From Erysipelotrichaceae bacterium (GTDB taxonomy: Bacteria > Bacillota_I > Bacilli_A > ML615J-28 > CAG-313): 64,000 nucleotides of DNA. The stretch covers positions 260,026-324,025 of the forward strand of contig SVBG01000001.1 in assembly GCA_015059015.1 (NCBI GenBank), written 5' to 3'. Position numbers and translations under genes: made by a program. Position 1 is the first letter of the stretch; every line of letters begins with the position of its first letter. Positions 1-52,017 of the stretch are shown here, piece by piece. The notes under the pieces are model-generated. The model did not search any database and was not told the origin of the DNA. It worked only from the letters and a program-made list of their open reading frames with translations.

Positions 1-912
1 GCAACATCAAAAGATATATCATATGAAGTATTAAAGAGTGAGAAAATAGATAAAGTGTATTATATTGAATGTTCTAAAATGAGTAAAAATATTAAGTCAT
101 ATGTTAAAAATTTAAAAGCATATAATAAAATAAAAAAGATTTTAAAAGAAGAAAAAGTTGAAATTGCGTATGGATTTGGTGGATATATTAGTGGAATAGG
201 AATACTTGCAGCAAAGTCTTTAAAGTTAAAAACATATTTACATGAACAAAATAGTGTAATGGGGAAAGCTAATAAATTATTATCTAAAATGGTTAATAAA
301 GTATTTTTATCATATCCAGTAAAGAAGATGAAAAAGAATTATTTATTAGTTGGTAATCCTGTTTATTTAAATGCGTTAAATGTAAAAAAAGATATATATA
401 AAATTAAGAAGAAAATTTTATTTACATCAGGTACTTTGGGTGCAAAAGTTATCAATGATTTGGCTGTTAATTTAATTAACAATGGATATTTAAAAGAATA
501 TGATATATATATTGTTACTGGTAAAAAATATTATGATAATATAAGAAACAGGGTTAATGGTCGTGTAGTTCATATATTTTCATTTAGTAATAATTTAATA
601 AATGAAATCGCATCTAGTGATATAGTAGTGTCACGTGCTGGTGCATCAACTTTATTTGAAATTATTGGAACTAGTACTCTTAGTATAATTATTCCATCTA
701 TTAATGTAACTAATAATCATCAGTATCATAATGCTGTGTATTTTAAAGAATTAGGTTGTATAGAAATGATTGAAGAAAAAGATCTAACAATGAGTAATTT
801 CATTCATAAATTAAATATGTTAAATTCAGATAAAGATATATATATAAATAATATGAAAAATTATCATTCAAATAAAATATATGATCATATGGTTGATGAG
901 GTACTGGCTTGA
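1..912 (+). CDS. murG: UDP-GlcNAc:lipid I transferase MurG, 5' end outside the window
   Basis: This enzyme adds GlcNAc to lipid I to make lipid II on the inner face of the membrane, the last cytoplasmic step of peptidoglycan precursor synthesis. The frame is open from the first base, so the gene is cut by the window edge; about 70 N-terminal residues, with the glycine-rich TGGTxGH region, are missing. Visible MurG features are an HEQNSVMGKANK segment, the GTLGA loop that opens the second Rossmann domain (classical GSxGA), and SRAGASTLFE, which fits the UDP-GlcNAc binding site. A GTG at 55 is an internal codon, not the start. The TGA stop overlaps the murB start, so the two genes are translationally coupled. 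TGA as stop also argues against a mycoplasma-type code. Confidence 0.93.
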   Translation, partial: ATSKDISYEVLKSEKIDKVYYIECSKMSKNIKSYVKNLKAYNKIKKILKEEKVEIAYGFGGYISGIGILAAKSLKLKTYLHEQNSVMGKANKLLSKMVNKVFLSYPVKKMKKNYLLVGNPVYLNALNVKKDIYKIKKKILFTSGTLGAKVINDLAVNLINNGYLKEYDIYIVTGKKYYDNIRNRVNGRVVHIFSFSNNLINEIASSDIVVSRAGASTLFEIIGTSTLSIIIPSINVTNNHQYHNAVYFKELGCIEMIEEKDLTMSNFIHKLNMLNSDKDIYINNMKNYHSNKIYDHMVDEVLA

Positions 913-37958: not shown

Positions 37959-38022
37959 ATAAATCACCTCTTTATGGATATATTATATCATATTATTATT
38001 AATTTGTAAAAAAAAATAACAA

Positions 38023-38047
38023 AAAAAAGGAGCAACTGCTCCTTTTT
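38023..38047 (-). terminator. Terminator left behind with the YjcZ-like remnant
   Basis: AAAAAGGAGCA pairs with TGCTCCTTTTT. The same type of hairpin follows the intact gene copy at 39841-39868, so it was duplicated with the gene. Confidence 0.75.
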
Positions 38048-38054
38048 AATTAAA

Positions 38055-38139
38055 TTAATAGCATCTTGCAGTACCGATAATTACTAATATAATGAATAAT
38101 ACTAGAATTAAAGCGTAGCCATAGTTAGGTTGAAAACAT
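38055..38139 (-). pseudogene. Broken copy of the YjcZ-like sporulation gene
   Basis: Matches the intact gene at 39877-40017 closely over the C-terminal part (YALILVLF and VIIGTAR) and over the N-terminal QPNYGY, but the middle 20 codons are deleted in frame and one extra T after the ATG (38137-38139) shifts the start out of frame. The ribosome binding site present before the intact copy is missing, and similarity stops at the ATG. A longer minus-strand frame through this region (from 38264) is therefore an accident of the frameshift and not a real gene. Confidence 0.85.
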
Positions 38140-38426: not shown

Positions 38427-38744
38427 ATGAAAAATTTAAATAAAGTGTTAGAAATTTACAATCATAATGAATTAAAAGAAATGGCAATCGAAGAACAAGA
38501 ACTATGGCTTAGAGCTAAAATAGTAATGCAATTTATATTTTTAAGAGAAAAATCTGGTTACACTCAACAAGAGATTGCTGAAAAAATGGGTGTAATGCGT
38601 CAACAAATTACTAGATTTGAAAACATGAGTAATTCACCAACTATATTCTTTTTAGTTAAATATGCAAGTGCGTTAAATACTGAATTAGATGTTATTTTAA
38701 GAGGGGTAGAATTAATGGAGGGAACACATGAAGGAAATTTATGA
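38427..38744 (+). CDS. XRE-family helix-turn-helix protein, antitoxin-like
   Basis: The 105-residue protein has an N-terminal helical segment (residues 1-35) and a Cro/CI domain FLREKSGYTQQEIAEKMGVMRQQITRFEN followed by the LVKYASALNTELDVIL helices typical of HigA-like antitoxins. GAGGTGTAAGT precedes the ATG. Its 3' end overlaps the RhuM gene by 17 bases, so the two are an operon. No RelE/HigB toxin gene is adjacent. A likely role is repressor of its own operon. Confidence 0.82.
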   Translation: MKNLNKVLEIYNHNELKEMAIEEQELWLRAKIVMQFIFLREKSGYTQQEIAEKMGVMRQQITRFENMSNSPTIFFLVKYASALNTELDVILRGVELMEGTHEGNL

Positions 38745-39624
38745 AATAATAAAGTTTAATAATAATAATTTGGAAATAGATGTTAAGGTATCTCCTCTTG
38801 AAAATACGATATGGCTTTCAATAGATCAAATTGCTTTGTTGTTTGAGAGAGATAAATCTGTTATTTCAAGACATATAAAAAATATATTTCAAATAAATGA
38901 ATTAGATGAAAATAGCTGTGTTGCATTTTTTGCAACTGAGCTAAATAAATATGATCCACGTACTGGAAAGATGAGAAAAACAAAAGTAGACATAAAATTA
39001 TTTAATTTAGATGTAATTATTTCGGTTGGATATAGAGTTAACTCAATAATGGGAGTAATATTTAGAAAATGGGCTAATAATGTATTAAAGGAATATCTAT
39101 TAAAAGGTTATGTTATAAATGAAGAAAGATCATTAGTTACTAATGAAAATTATGTTAAATTGATTAATAAAGTCGAATCTTTAGATGAAAGAGTTAGTTG
39201 TATTGAAAAAGAGTACAAGCCTCAAGAATTTAAAAATTCACAATTATTTTTTGATGGAGAGATTTATGATGCGTATGCATTTGTACAGTCACTAATTGAA
39301 AAAGCCAATAACGAAATTATAATAATTGATAATTATGTAGATAGAACAATACTTGATAGATTAGTAGTAAAGAAAAACAATGTTCAAGTTATTATTTATA
39401 CTAGTATAAATTCAAGATTGTTAGGTATTGATATTAATGCGTTTAACAGTCAGTATGGGGGTTTGAACGTTAGATATACTACTAAAGTTCATGATAGATA
39501 TATTATAATAGATCAAAATAGTTTATATCATTTAGGACATTCAATTAAAGATTTAGGAAAAAAAATTTTTTCGATAAGTGAATCAGATAGTAATTTAATA
39601 CAAGTTCTTTTAAACAATATTTAG
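38728..39624 (+). CDS. RhuM-type DNA-binding protein with PLD-like C-terminal domain
   Basis: Two-part protein of 298 residues. Residues 1-150 are the RhuM (virulence/phage antirepressor-like) domain: WLSIDQIALLFERDKSVISRHI, FFATELNKYDPRTGKMRK, VISVGYRVNSIMGVIFRKWA, LLKGYVINEER. Residues 170-298 resemble a phospholipase D-like half domain: FFDGEIYDAYAFVQSLIEKA, IIIDNYVDRTILD, VHDRYIIID and LGHSIKDLGKKIF, where HDR replaces the classical HxK. This architecture is known as a family in mobile and defence regions, without a settled function. GGAGGGAACAC precedes the ATG, inside the HTH gene. Confidence 0.85.
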   Translation: MKEIYEIIKFNNNNLEIDVKVSPLENTIWLSIDQIALLFERDKSVISRHIKNIFQINELDENSCVAFFATELNKYDPRTGKMRKTKVDIKLFNLDVIISVGYRVNSIMGVIFRKWANNVLKEYLLKGYVINEERSLVTNENYVKLINKVESLDERVSCIEKEYKPQEFKNSQLFFDGEIYDAYAFVQSLIEKANNEIIIIDNYVDRTILDRLVVKKNNVQVIIYTSINSRLLGIDINAFNSQYGGLNVRYTTKVHDRYIIIDQNSLYHLGHSIKDLGKKIFSISESDSNLIQVLLNNI

Positions 39625-39741
39625 ATATGATTTATATCAGTTAAATATTAATTATTTTAATTGTAAAACTAAATATAAATGTTAAAATAAAAGTTCATAA
39701 ATATGATGATTTATTTTAATATTTATGATATGATAAAATAT

Positions 39742-39820
39742 ATAAATGTAATATTACTTTTTGGGCTGGCCGGAAGGTCTTGGTCCACCGAAAGGCGGGG
39801 AATTTCCCTGCCACTTTTTT
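39742..39820 (+). ncRNA. GC-rich small RNA candidate behind the RhuM gene
   Basis: Bases 39763-39817 are strongly GC-rich inside very AT-rich DNA. GGGCUGGCC, a GGAA tetraloop and GGUCUUGGUCC form one hairpin (39763-39785, with G-U pairs and a UU bulge). CC-GAAA-GG at 39788-39795 can form a second small GNRA hairpin. GGCGGGGA / UUCCCUGCC (39794-39812) followed by ACTTTTTT is a strong terminator for + strand transcription. TATGAT at 39729-39734 could be the -10 for a transcript of about 80 bases. No frame is open across it and the next gene is on the other strand, so it is not a leader. It matches no RNA family I recognise. Confidence 0.65.
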
Positions 39821-39840: not shown

Positions 39841-39868
39841 AAAAAAAAGGAGCATAAAGCTCCCTTTT
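39841..39868 (-). terminator. Terminator of the YjcZ-like gene
   Basis: AAAAGGGAGC-type stem on the minus strand (GGAGC / GCTCC with flanking A/T pairs) nine bases after the stop, ending in a T-run. Confidence 0.75.
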
Positions 39869-39876
39869 AAATTTTA

Positions 39877-40017
39877 TTACCATCTTGCAGTACCGATAAT
39901 TACTAATAAAATGAATAATACTAGAATTAAAGCGTAGCCATAACCGCCAAAGTTACTATTAGAACCACCGCATGTAGTTTGTTGACAACATCCATATCCA
40001 TAGTTAGGTTGATACAT
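39877..40017 (-). CDS. YjcZ-like small sporulation membrane protein, 46 residues
   Basis: Too short for automated calls but clear: ATG at 40017 behind AAAGGAGGTGGAACT, stop at 39877. The product begins MYQPNYGYGCCQQ, has a Gly/Asn/Tyr-rich middle and ends with a single membrane helix YALILVLFILLVIIGTARW. The GYG(F/Y)ALIxVLFILLxIIG pattern is that of YjcZ-family small sporulation proteins of Bacilli. Function unknown; the family is expressed in sporulation. A broken second copy lies at 38055-38139 on the other side of the HTH-RhuM island. Confidence 0.88.
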   Translation of the reverse strand: MYQPNYGYGCCQQTTCGGSNSNFGGYGYALILVLFILLVIIGTARW

Positions 40018-49654: not shown

Positions 49655-51034
49655 ATGAATAAGAAATTAAAAGAATATATTGAAAACATAAATGGTGTAG
49701 TTCACACAACATTTAATCCTAAAGGACCTGGTGTTGTGAGACTTCATTTAATTCCTCCTAAAAAGATAAAACTTGGTATTCCTTGGGTAGTAATAATTAA
49801 TGGGCAGGATATTCTACCTATTAGTTGTGGTTGGGCGATTCTTTTAAAAATCTTTATTGAAAATATTAATAAGACATATGGTAAAGTTATTAGTGATGAA
49901 GAAATGGAAAGCATTATCGAAATAACTATTAGTAAAATGTCAAAACTATTTCCTAAAACTGATAAAGAATTGTTTAAAGAAGATTTAAGTGATATTATTA
50001 AAACATTTGAAAAAATTGCAATTGGTGAGACTCCTGATATTGTAACAGGTTTTATGAGCTTAAAAGATTACGCAAAATATATGAGAGCACCCCATAGAAT
50101 GGATTTAATGGTTAGCTCAATGTGTGAAAAAGGTCAGTGGCATTGTAATCAAAAATGCCTTCACTGTTATGCAGGACATCAAGAATATGCAATTAAAGAA
50201 GAACTTTCAACTGATGAATGGAAACATATTATTGATGAATGTAAAAATGCATGTATCCCACAACTTACATTTACTGGTGGAGAACCAACTCTTAGAAGTG
50301 ATTTAGTAGAACTTGTAGAATACGCATCTTGGTTTGTCACTAGAGTTAATACTAATGGTATTTTACTTACAAAAGAATTATGTGCATCTTTATATGAAGC
50401 ATCTCTTGATAGTGTTCAAGTAACTCTTTATTCACATGAAGAACATATTCATAATTTACTTGTTGGTGCTAATACTTTCAATAAAACGATTGAAGGTATT
50501 AAAAATGCAATATGTGCAGGACTTAATGTAAGTATTAATACTCCTTTATGCTCGTTAAATAAAGATTATTTAGAACTTGTTAAATTTGCTCATGAAAAAC
50601 TAGGTATTGATTACTTTACATGTTCTGGTATTATTATTACTGGTAATGCTACAAAAGAAGAAGCTATTGATACACAACTATCTAAAGAAGAAATAACTAG
50701 TATTTTAAAGAATGTTACGGAATATGCTCACGCTAATGAACTAGGACTTAATTTCACATCACCTGGTTGGGTTGACACAATGCAGTTAAAAGAATTTAAT
50801 CTAAACGTTCCTTCATGTGGTGCATGTTTATCTAATATGGCTATTGCACCTGATGGTACAGTTGTGCCTTGTCAAAGTTGGTTAAATAATCATCAACTTG
50901 GTAACTTACTACATGATGATTTTAAAACAATTTGGAATAGTAAACTTGTTAAACAAATTAGAAAATCACATTTAAAATATTATAATGTATGTCCACTTAA
51001 TGAAAAAACTAAACAAGGAGAATGTAGTATATGA
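49655..51034 (+). CDS. Radical SAM/SPASM enzyme, probable peptide or protein maturase
   Basis: Iron-sulfur enzyme of 459 residues. Residues 1-150 hold a PqqD-like or otherwise unassigned N-terminal region (PWVVIINGQDILPISCGWAI). The radical SAM cluster motif WHCNQKCLHCYAG (CxxxCxxC) is near 164, then TFTGGEPTLRSDLVELVEYA (GGEP) and VNTNGILL. A SPASM end has PSCGACLSNMAIAPDGTVVPCQSWL and further Cys at CPLNEKTKQGEC, which would bind auxiliary clusters. SPASM enzymes usually modify ribosomal peptides or proteins. The gene overlaps the next one, whose product ends in a Cys-Ala repeat; that protein is the obvious candidate substrate. ATG at 49655 has a weak GGTG site. Confidence 0.9.
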   Translation: MNKKLKEYIENINGVVHTTFNPKGPGVVRLHLIPPKKIKLGIPWVVIINGQDILPISCGWAILLKIFIENINKTYGKVISDEEMESIIEITISKMSKLFPKTDKELFKEDLSDIIKTFEKIAIGETPDIVTGFMSLKDYAKYMRAPHRMDLMVSSMCEKGQWHCNQKCLHCYAGHQEYAIKEELSTDEWKHIIDECKNACIPQLTFTGGEPTLRSDLVELVEYASWFVTRVNTNGILLTKELCASLYEASLDSVQVTLYSHEEHIHNLLVGANTFNKTIEGIKNAICAGLNVSINTPLCSLNKDYLELVKFAHEKLGIDYFTCSGIIITGNATKEEAIDTQLSKEEITSILKNVTEYAHANELGLNFTSPGWVDTMQLKEFNLNVPSCGACLSNMAIAPDGTVVPCQSWLNNHQLGNLLHDDFKTIWNSKLVKQIRKSHLKYYNVCPLNEKTKQGECSI

Positions 51035-52017
51035 GAAAAATAATTACATTTTTAACTTTGTTGTTAGTTATAATTTCTTCTTCGTTTTTAAATGTTAAGG
51101 CTAAATCTAATGGATATTTAGATAGAATTGATTATTATGAAATAACAATTGATCCTAATAAAGATGGAACACTAGATATGGAATTTAATATTATTTGGAC
51201 TGTTCTTGATTCTACAACTGATGGTCCACTGACTTGGGTAAAGATAGGTATTCCAAATAAGTATGCTAGTAATATTCAAGCAACTACTTCTAATATTTCT
51301 AAAATTAGTTATTATTCTGATAGTGGTTCATATATTAAAATAGATTTAAATAGAGAGTATTTTGCGGGAGAAACATTAGAGATTGGTTTTACATATATTC
51401 AAGCGAGAATGTATATGTTAAAAGGTAGTGATTGTTATTATAATTATAAACCTGGTTGGTTTGATGAAATCCCAGTAACAAGTGCAGTTGTTAAATGGAA
51501 TAAATCAGGTATAATTGATTCTAATTATATGACTCTTGAAGGTGACTATTATATTTGGAGTAACGCTTTAAATCCTAGAGAAACACTTGATATTAATATT
51601 AAATATGATCAAAGCTATTTTAGAGTTTTAAATCCAGATCTTCAATATACTGATGCATATTTAACAACAAAAGATATTGTAGCAATTATTATAATTGTTT
51701 GTGTATTTGCTGTATCGATTACGGTGTTAATAATATCTATTGTTTCGCAACAAGATCCGTATTTACATGAACGAGGATTTGTTGGCAGAAGTTATTATTT
51801 CCACAGAAGAAGATATTATCATGCAGGATATTATTCAACAGGTAGAAAAATTAGAAAACCAGTCACAGTAAATTCAAGTGGTTTTAGAGGTAGTAACGGA
51901 AGTTCCTGTGCTTGTGCGTGTGCTTGTGCATGTGCAGGTGGTGGTAGAGCGGGATGCTCGATGAAAGACTTTTATAAACATCCAAAACTTGAACAAATTA
52001 AAAAAGCACTAAAGTAA
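51031..52017 (+). CDS. Membrane protein with (Cys-Ala)5 tail, probable substrate of the radical SAM enzyme
   Basis: The 328-residue protein has a signal peptide (1-24), an extracellular beta-rich domain (25-205, with TLDMEFNIIWTVLD and FTYIQARMYML), one membrane helix (about 213-240) and a basic cytoplasmic tail rich in Arg, Tyr and His. The tail contains five Cys-Ala units at residues 293-302, then GGGRAGC with a sixth Cys at 309, and ends in KDFYKHPKLEQIKKALK. The topology puts the cysteines on the inside, where the radical SAM enzyme works. The ATG overlaps that enzyme's stop codon (ATGA) and AAGGAG precedes it. The extracellular domain recalls DUF2207-like proteins, without certainty. Confidence 0.85.
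   Translation: MRKIITFLTLLLVIISSSFLNVKAKSNGYLDRIDYYEITIDPNKDGTLDMEFNIIWTVLDSTTDGPLTWVKIGIPNKYASNIQATTSNISKISYYSDSGSYIKIDLNREYFAGETLEIGFTYIQARMYMLKGSDCYYNYKPGWFDEIPVTSAVVKWNKSGIIDSNYMTLEGDYYIWSNALNPRETLDINIKYDQSYFRVLNPDLQYTDAYLTTKDIVAIIIIVCVFAVSITVLIISIVSQQDPYLHERGFVGRSYYFHRRRYYHAGYYSTGRKIRKPVTVNSSGFRGSNGSSCACACACACAGGGRAGCSMKDFYKHPKLEQIKKALK

Follow-up and report, generated by a model that had tools for sequence, protein, structure and literature searches.

The window, by which we mean the whole stretch of DNA analysed here (64,000 nt, from an Erysipelotrichaceae bacterium), carries a small-RNA gene that, judged from its sequence, is near certain to belong to the DUF3800-XI family. The Rfam model of this family, RF02975, matches the RNA over its full length (model positions 1-48 of 48) with 58.1 bits and an E value of 2.9e-10, the gathering cut-off being 37.8 bits, and our own covariance model R1, which comprises the two hairpins P1 and P2 and was built from 15 RNAs, scores it 72.8 bits. 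A preliminary description of the locus had proposed a structured small-RNA gene, which both the RF02975 match and the fold bear out, but it had also called the gene undescribed, and this claim falls because RF02975 matches; a match to a known RNA family was what that description itself had named as evidence against it. The window copy shares with the RF02975 RNA the bulged P1 hairpin, the conserved TGGGCTG...GGTCCACC and a GC-rich 3' hairpin. Whereas the RF02975 RNA usually adjoins a DUF3800 gene, to which it owes its name, the window copy has no neighbouring DUF3800; its membership of the family by sequence and structure stands all the same, because adjacency is a tendency and the Rfam model does not require it. 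No second copy of the RNA was found in the window's genome.

Structure and covariation of the RNA

The segment had been singled out for its composition, and rightly so: 39762-39814 has a GC content of 64% against 27.6% for the window overall, and it is the richest 53-nt GC stretch of the entire window. The window has one other GC-rich spot, at 51031-52017, which encodes a membrane protein with a C-terminal cysteine/alanine repeat (SCACACACACACAGGGRAGCS). The RNA segment has a minimum free energy (MFE) of -27.2 kcal/mol (z = -2.25 versus shuffles), and its parts lie in order on the + strand. P1 (39762-39787), identified by RF02975, R1 and covariation, is a conserved bulged hairpin of 6 bp, a 2-nt bulge, 4 bp and a GGAA loop (TGGGCT-GGCC-GGAA-GGTC-TT-GGTCCA), and the GGAA-capped hairpin noted earlier is confirmed. 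The linker CCGAAA (39788-39793) leads to P2, a terminator hairpin (39794-39812) that ends with its T-run at 39820 (GGCGGGGAATTTCCCTGCC ACTTTTTT); the strong terminator read there at the outset is supported by covariation among 41 RNAs and by a terminator scan, which found two terminator-like sites in a 300-nt region where 0.1 were expected. A separate GAAA hairpin had been described as well, and this was rejected, as CCGAAA is an inter-stem linker that stays unpaired in the MFE fold and differs among relatives according to the RNA/DUF3800 subtype (CCAAAA, TCTA, AACCTA). Upstream of the RNA, a candidate extended -10 (TGATAAAAT, 39731-39739, + strand) was read from the sequence, and the transcript would start at about 39746. 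The earlier proposal of a -10 is plausible in this form but does not rise above chance in scans, and the promoter scans gave no -35/-10 pair above chance at the window locus. In relatives, a TTGACA/TATAAT pair is often present at the promoter position, where the best match averages 9.6/12 versus 7.9 in shuffles.

In an alignment of 41 RNAs, standard pairing holds in 97% of the cells of the 17 pairs, and both sides change in 13 of these; pairing as good was reached in 0 of 500 shuffles, and slid versions of the structure fail. All seven pairs of P2 covary, and this is a difference from the Rfam model, in which the 3' part (P2/terminator) is unpaired. The lower stem of P1 is compensated among subtypes (TGGGCT/GGTCCA, TGGTCT/GGACCA, TGAACT/GGTTCA, TGATCT/GGATCA, TTGGCT/GGTCAA). 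The C-G and U.G pairs of P1 beside the bulge are almost invariant, and because they hardly vary, recognition of these pairs by a protein is suggested. The window RNA keeps 17/17 pairs, including all 10 of P1, and its subtype, CCGAAA-GGCGGGGA, is also present in units of Treponema and Lachnospiraceae. Another subtype, with the P2 loop GGGTAAGACACCC (L006, L009, L011, L069, L070, L071 and L117), recurs in Lachnospiraceae and Bacilli; most of its copies have no DUF3800, their neighbours vary, and it is possibly an established lineage of solitary RNAs. The cow-rumen-3 RNA (RF03083) differs from the window RNA in its extra 5' stems and scores 23.6 bits over 39692-39789, below its cut-off of 86.7; because its 3' hairpin resembles P1, the RF03083 and DUF3800-XI families may be related.

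Linkage with DUF3800 genes in other genomes

In a pattern scan covering 84,980 species genomes, ten loci came up, which belong to Treponema/Spirochaetaceae, Lachnospiraceae, Olsenella and one further bacterium. A DUF3800 gene directly follows the RNA and its terminator at four of these ten loci and also in G011, a genome of the window organism's own family. The complete unit in other genomes consists of promoter, RNA, terminator and DUF3800 gene, and the gap between the terminator and the start codon leaves no room for another promoter. When 17 RNA-bearing genomes were searched with R1, 27 RNAs were obtained, and 15 of the 16 same-subtype DUF3800 copies in these genomes had the RNA 15-40 nt upstream; the sixteenth, L080, whose protein is 33% identical, shows at the same position a hairpin and terminator that have diverged (12.6 bits). 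Because this sample had been chosen by RNA, we also started from the protein: a DUF3800 query run against 295 genomes from the order to which G505 belongs hit 15 additional loci spread over 14 genomes, and the RNA with its terminator lay 15-40 nt upstream at every one of them (15/15; default filters sufficed for 14, and the remaining one needed the filters switched off). The distances among the RNAs correlate with those among the proteins (Mantel r 0.75, p 0.0001, n 17), which shows that the two are co-inherited as a unit; contact between them is not proven by this correlation alone. We infer that the unit moves horizontally, since Lachnospiraceae and Treponema are intermixed in the DUF3800 protein tree and each of two Treponema genomes has four units.

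All DUF3800 sequences examined (18/18) belong to PF12686 and share the invariant residues D11/E12, D144 and D182. The structure was predicted with a pLDDT of 94, the best solved folds matching the model are RNase HII enzymes (E 7e-5, TM 0.4), and an RNase HII-like fold is thus predicted, which agrees with an RNase H-type fold reported earlier (PMC10910872). PADLOC has no listing for the RNA-linked DUF3800. A distant DUF3800 (31%), split across two annotated ORFs, was seen in Collinsella aerofaciens (L135; NZ_OY725717.1, 259533-264186) just downstream of brxL in a BREX defence cluster; the place of the RNA is taken there by a hairpin and terminator.

The RNA is also found without an intact gene. 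At nine loci (G505:C12, G502:C46, G511:C22, G508:C61, G653, G594, G671, G742 and G777) stops or internal deletions disrupt DUF3800 beside an intact RNA; some of the genomes behind this count had been selected because they contain the RNA. L012 retains the RNA and the first DUF3800 codons only, and L009 has a DUF3800 fragment. Entirely solitary copies were seen in the window and in G003, G007, G238, G326, G481, G503 and others.

A DUF3800-XI RNA was further observed in the tRNA array of a 138.8-kb phage contig (IMGVR_UViG_3300018495_000082; L016:7894-7950 and L015:2661-2718), directly 5' of a tRNA-Glu(ctc) gene. This contig carries phage tail-type and phrog_850 genes, and the copy in L016 has lost the T-run of P2 and keeps the pairing via swapped G-C pairs. 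No DUF3800 was found in that 138.8-kb record, and the phage RNA is possibly a phage-borne antidote. A blastn search found no named phages or plasmids carrying the RNA. A looser viral scan gave 19 contigs, among which, besides L015 and L016, L060 reached 27 bits and the others stayed below 20 bits with R1; in view of these low scores the additional contigs were treated as chance.

The window locus and its HTH-RhuM neighbours

No DUF3800 gene or remnant was found beside the window RNA. The one weak tblastn match (L013 query, -3..56) was rejected as a DUF3800 remnant, as the ORF behind it is over-extended and includes a translation of the RNA. In the window's genome a single DUF3800 was found; it is of another subtype and has no DUF3800-XI RNA.

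Upstream of the RNA and on the same (+) strand lie an HTH_3 (Xre-type) gene (38427-38744; PF01381) and a gene for a RhuM N-domain protein (38728-39624; PF13310), which PADLOC lists as the candidate defence protein PDC-S05 and whose C-terminal part is PLD-like as judged by eye, Pfam making no such call. Neither gene is a regular partner of the RNA. RhuM homologues occur in 117 of 346 genomes of the class, and the preliminary description had placed the RNA within the HTH-RhuM island, as a possible part of that system, and advised looking for it downstream of RhuM-PLD homologues. This was done, and the RNA is absent from all 28 other RhuM loci fetched (identities from 72% downwards); among the RhuM homologues examined, only the window genome and its near-identical sister species G003 have it, the latter in the same HTH-RhuM-RNA block (97.8% identical over 1.76 kb, RNA included). 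An RNA-family search of 100 relatives likewise returned the window genome and one sister species, besides weak matches in two others, at sites away from RhuM. RhuM was therefore rejected as the partner; since the RNA has DUF3800 partners elsewhere and the 28 RhuM loci are RNA-free, RNA and RhuM appear to be neighbours by chance or by shared insertion, and the RhuM genes beside the RNA are probably a coincidence. The HTH-RhuM-RNA block is flanked by a direct repeat of 89% identity (38022-38123 and 39841-39942), which is the end of a yjcZ-like gene with its terminator; the upstream copy is truncated, and this suggests a duplication or insertion at the site.

Discussion

We found no paper on the function of the DUF3800-XI or cow-rumen-3 RNA in the searchable literature, which, as far as it shows, assigns no function to DUF3800 RNA motifs. 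The explanation that we favour, although we would give it slightly less than an even chance, is that the RNA is a trans-acting, antitoxin-like inhibitor that binds and restrains the DUF3800 nuclease, the window copy being a solitary one. The window RNA gene is about 75 nt long, with a candidate promoter of its own and its own intrinsic terminator. In a complete unit, most transcripts would end at P2 and supply an excess of RNA, and rare read-through of the terminator would yield a little DUF3800. The RNA would bind DUF3800 through P1 and hold the nuclease inactive, in the manner of type III toxin-antitoxins and of AbiF/RCd22. The solitary window RNA would neutralise incoming DUF3800 units, or it would be a relic on its way out. 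The idea of an RNA antitoxin, raised before this analysis, is sensible for the RNA family but not as a part of the RhuM system, whose 28 other loci fetched lack the RNA.

The type III systems (ToxIN, AbiQ, TenpIN) have the same layout as the DUF3800 units, with an RNA gene, an intrinsic terminator and a nuclease gene in order on one strand (PMC5086642), although this one-operon layout is seen in the DUF3800-bearing relatives and not at the window locus. Type III antitoxins are classically tandem repeats, whereas DUF3800-XI has one P1-P2 unit per locus, and the type III toxin is of the ToxN/AbiQ type, whereas the DUF3800 model resembles RNase HII and not ToxN. A phage mimic of an antitoxin RNA is known in the pseudo-ToxI of PhiTE (PMC3475682). 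AbiF/RCd22 of Clostridioides difficile (RF03085) is comparable in layout, with an ncRNA of about 100 nt that has a SigA promoter and a terminator and lies upstream of a toxic protein gene, whose product this RNA neutralises both in cis and in trans (PMC12373285); the system differs in its unrelated protein (Abi_2, Cas13-like) and in having another RNA motif, which is present twice. Because the repeats are missing, the fold is different and neutralisation by the RNA is a proposal, we do not claim membership of type III for DUF3800-XI.

Omega-RNA is a cofactor of TnpB, and on this model the DUF3800-XI RNA could be a required guide or scaffold of the DUF3800 nuclease, solitary copies being left-overs or serving DUF3800 in trans. 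We consider this unlikely, but it is a serious rival to inhibition, as the RNA is tightly linked and co-inherited with an RNase H-fold protein, and a TPR-fused DUF3800 accompanies some Cas12a2 systems, for which the authors suggest an interference or crRNA-processing role (PMC10910872). However, a terminator stands between the RNA and the gene, the RNA outlasts a broken DUF3800 at at least nine loci, and this short, fully structured RNA has no variable guide segment.

Whatever the family does, the window copy could be a decaying, functionless relic, given that it has no DUF3800 partner and that the window and sister RNAs differ at 4 of 53 positions; with the surrounding 1.76-kb block 97.8% identical, strong selection on the window copy is not evident. 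One P1 pair is lost in the sister, but two of the four differences replace a G.U by a Watson-Crick pair, the window keeps its full set of pairs, and the R1 scores remain high (70.9 bits in the sister), so that complete decay seems rather improbable. The window copy may be either a standing antidote against incoming DUF3800 units or a relic.

A purely cis-acting leader or attenuator that controls DUF3800 by regulated termination would suit the position of the RNA and terminator within the DUF3800 leader, where a second promoter has no space before the start codon. This is quite improbable, in that solitary terminator-bearing copies exist without a downstream partner (the window, L002, L003, L006, L011 and L069-L071) and the phage tRNA-array copy maintains P2 by compensated changes without a T-run. 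Finally, a functional part of the HTH-RhuM-PLD system, such as an RNA antitoxin or guide, is suggested by adjacency on the same strand in two sister species, but it is largely refuted by the RNA-free RhuM loci and by the DUF3800 or varied neighbours of the RNA elsewhere, and we regard it as extremely improbable.

The DUF3800-XI RNA and DUF3800 could together form a new, mobile, RNA-controlled toxin or defence module whose solitary RNAs act as antidotes that protect their carriers. This wider proposal, which spans the RNase HII-fold nuclease, its occurrence in gut Lachnospiraceae, Spirochaetota and Bacilli, and solitary RNAs in bacterial islands and a large-phage tRNA array, is possible but doubtful. 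As far as the window is concerned, the outcome is modest, namely a solitary copy of an already catalogued RNA type. The RNA family was already known, and the new lead concerns what the DUF3800-XI family does: the order of RNA, terminator and DUF3800, the persistence of the RNA beside broken genes and the copy in a phage tRNA array lead to the testable question of whether this RNA is an antidote to the DUF3800 nuclease.
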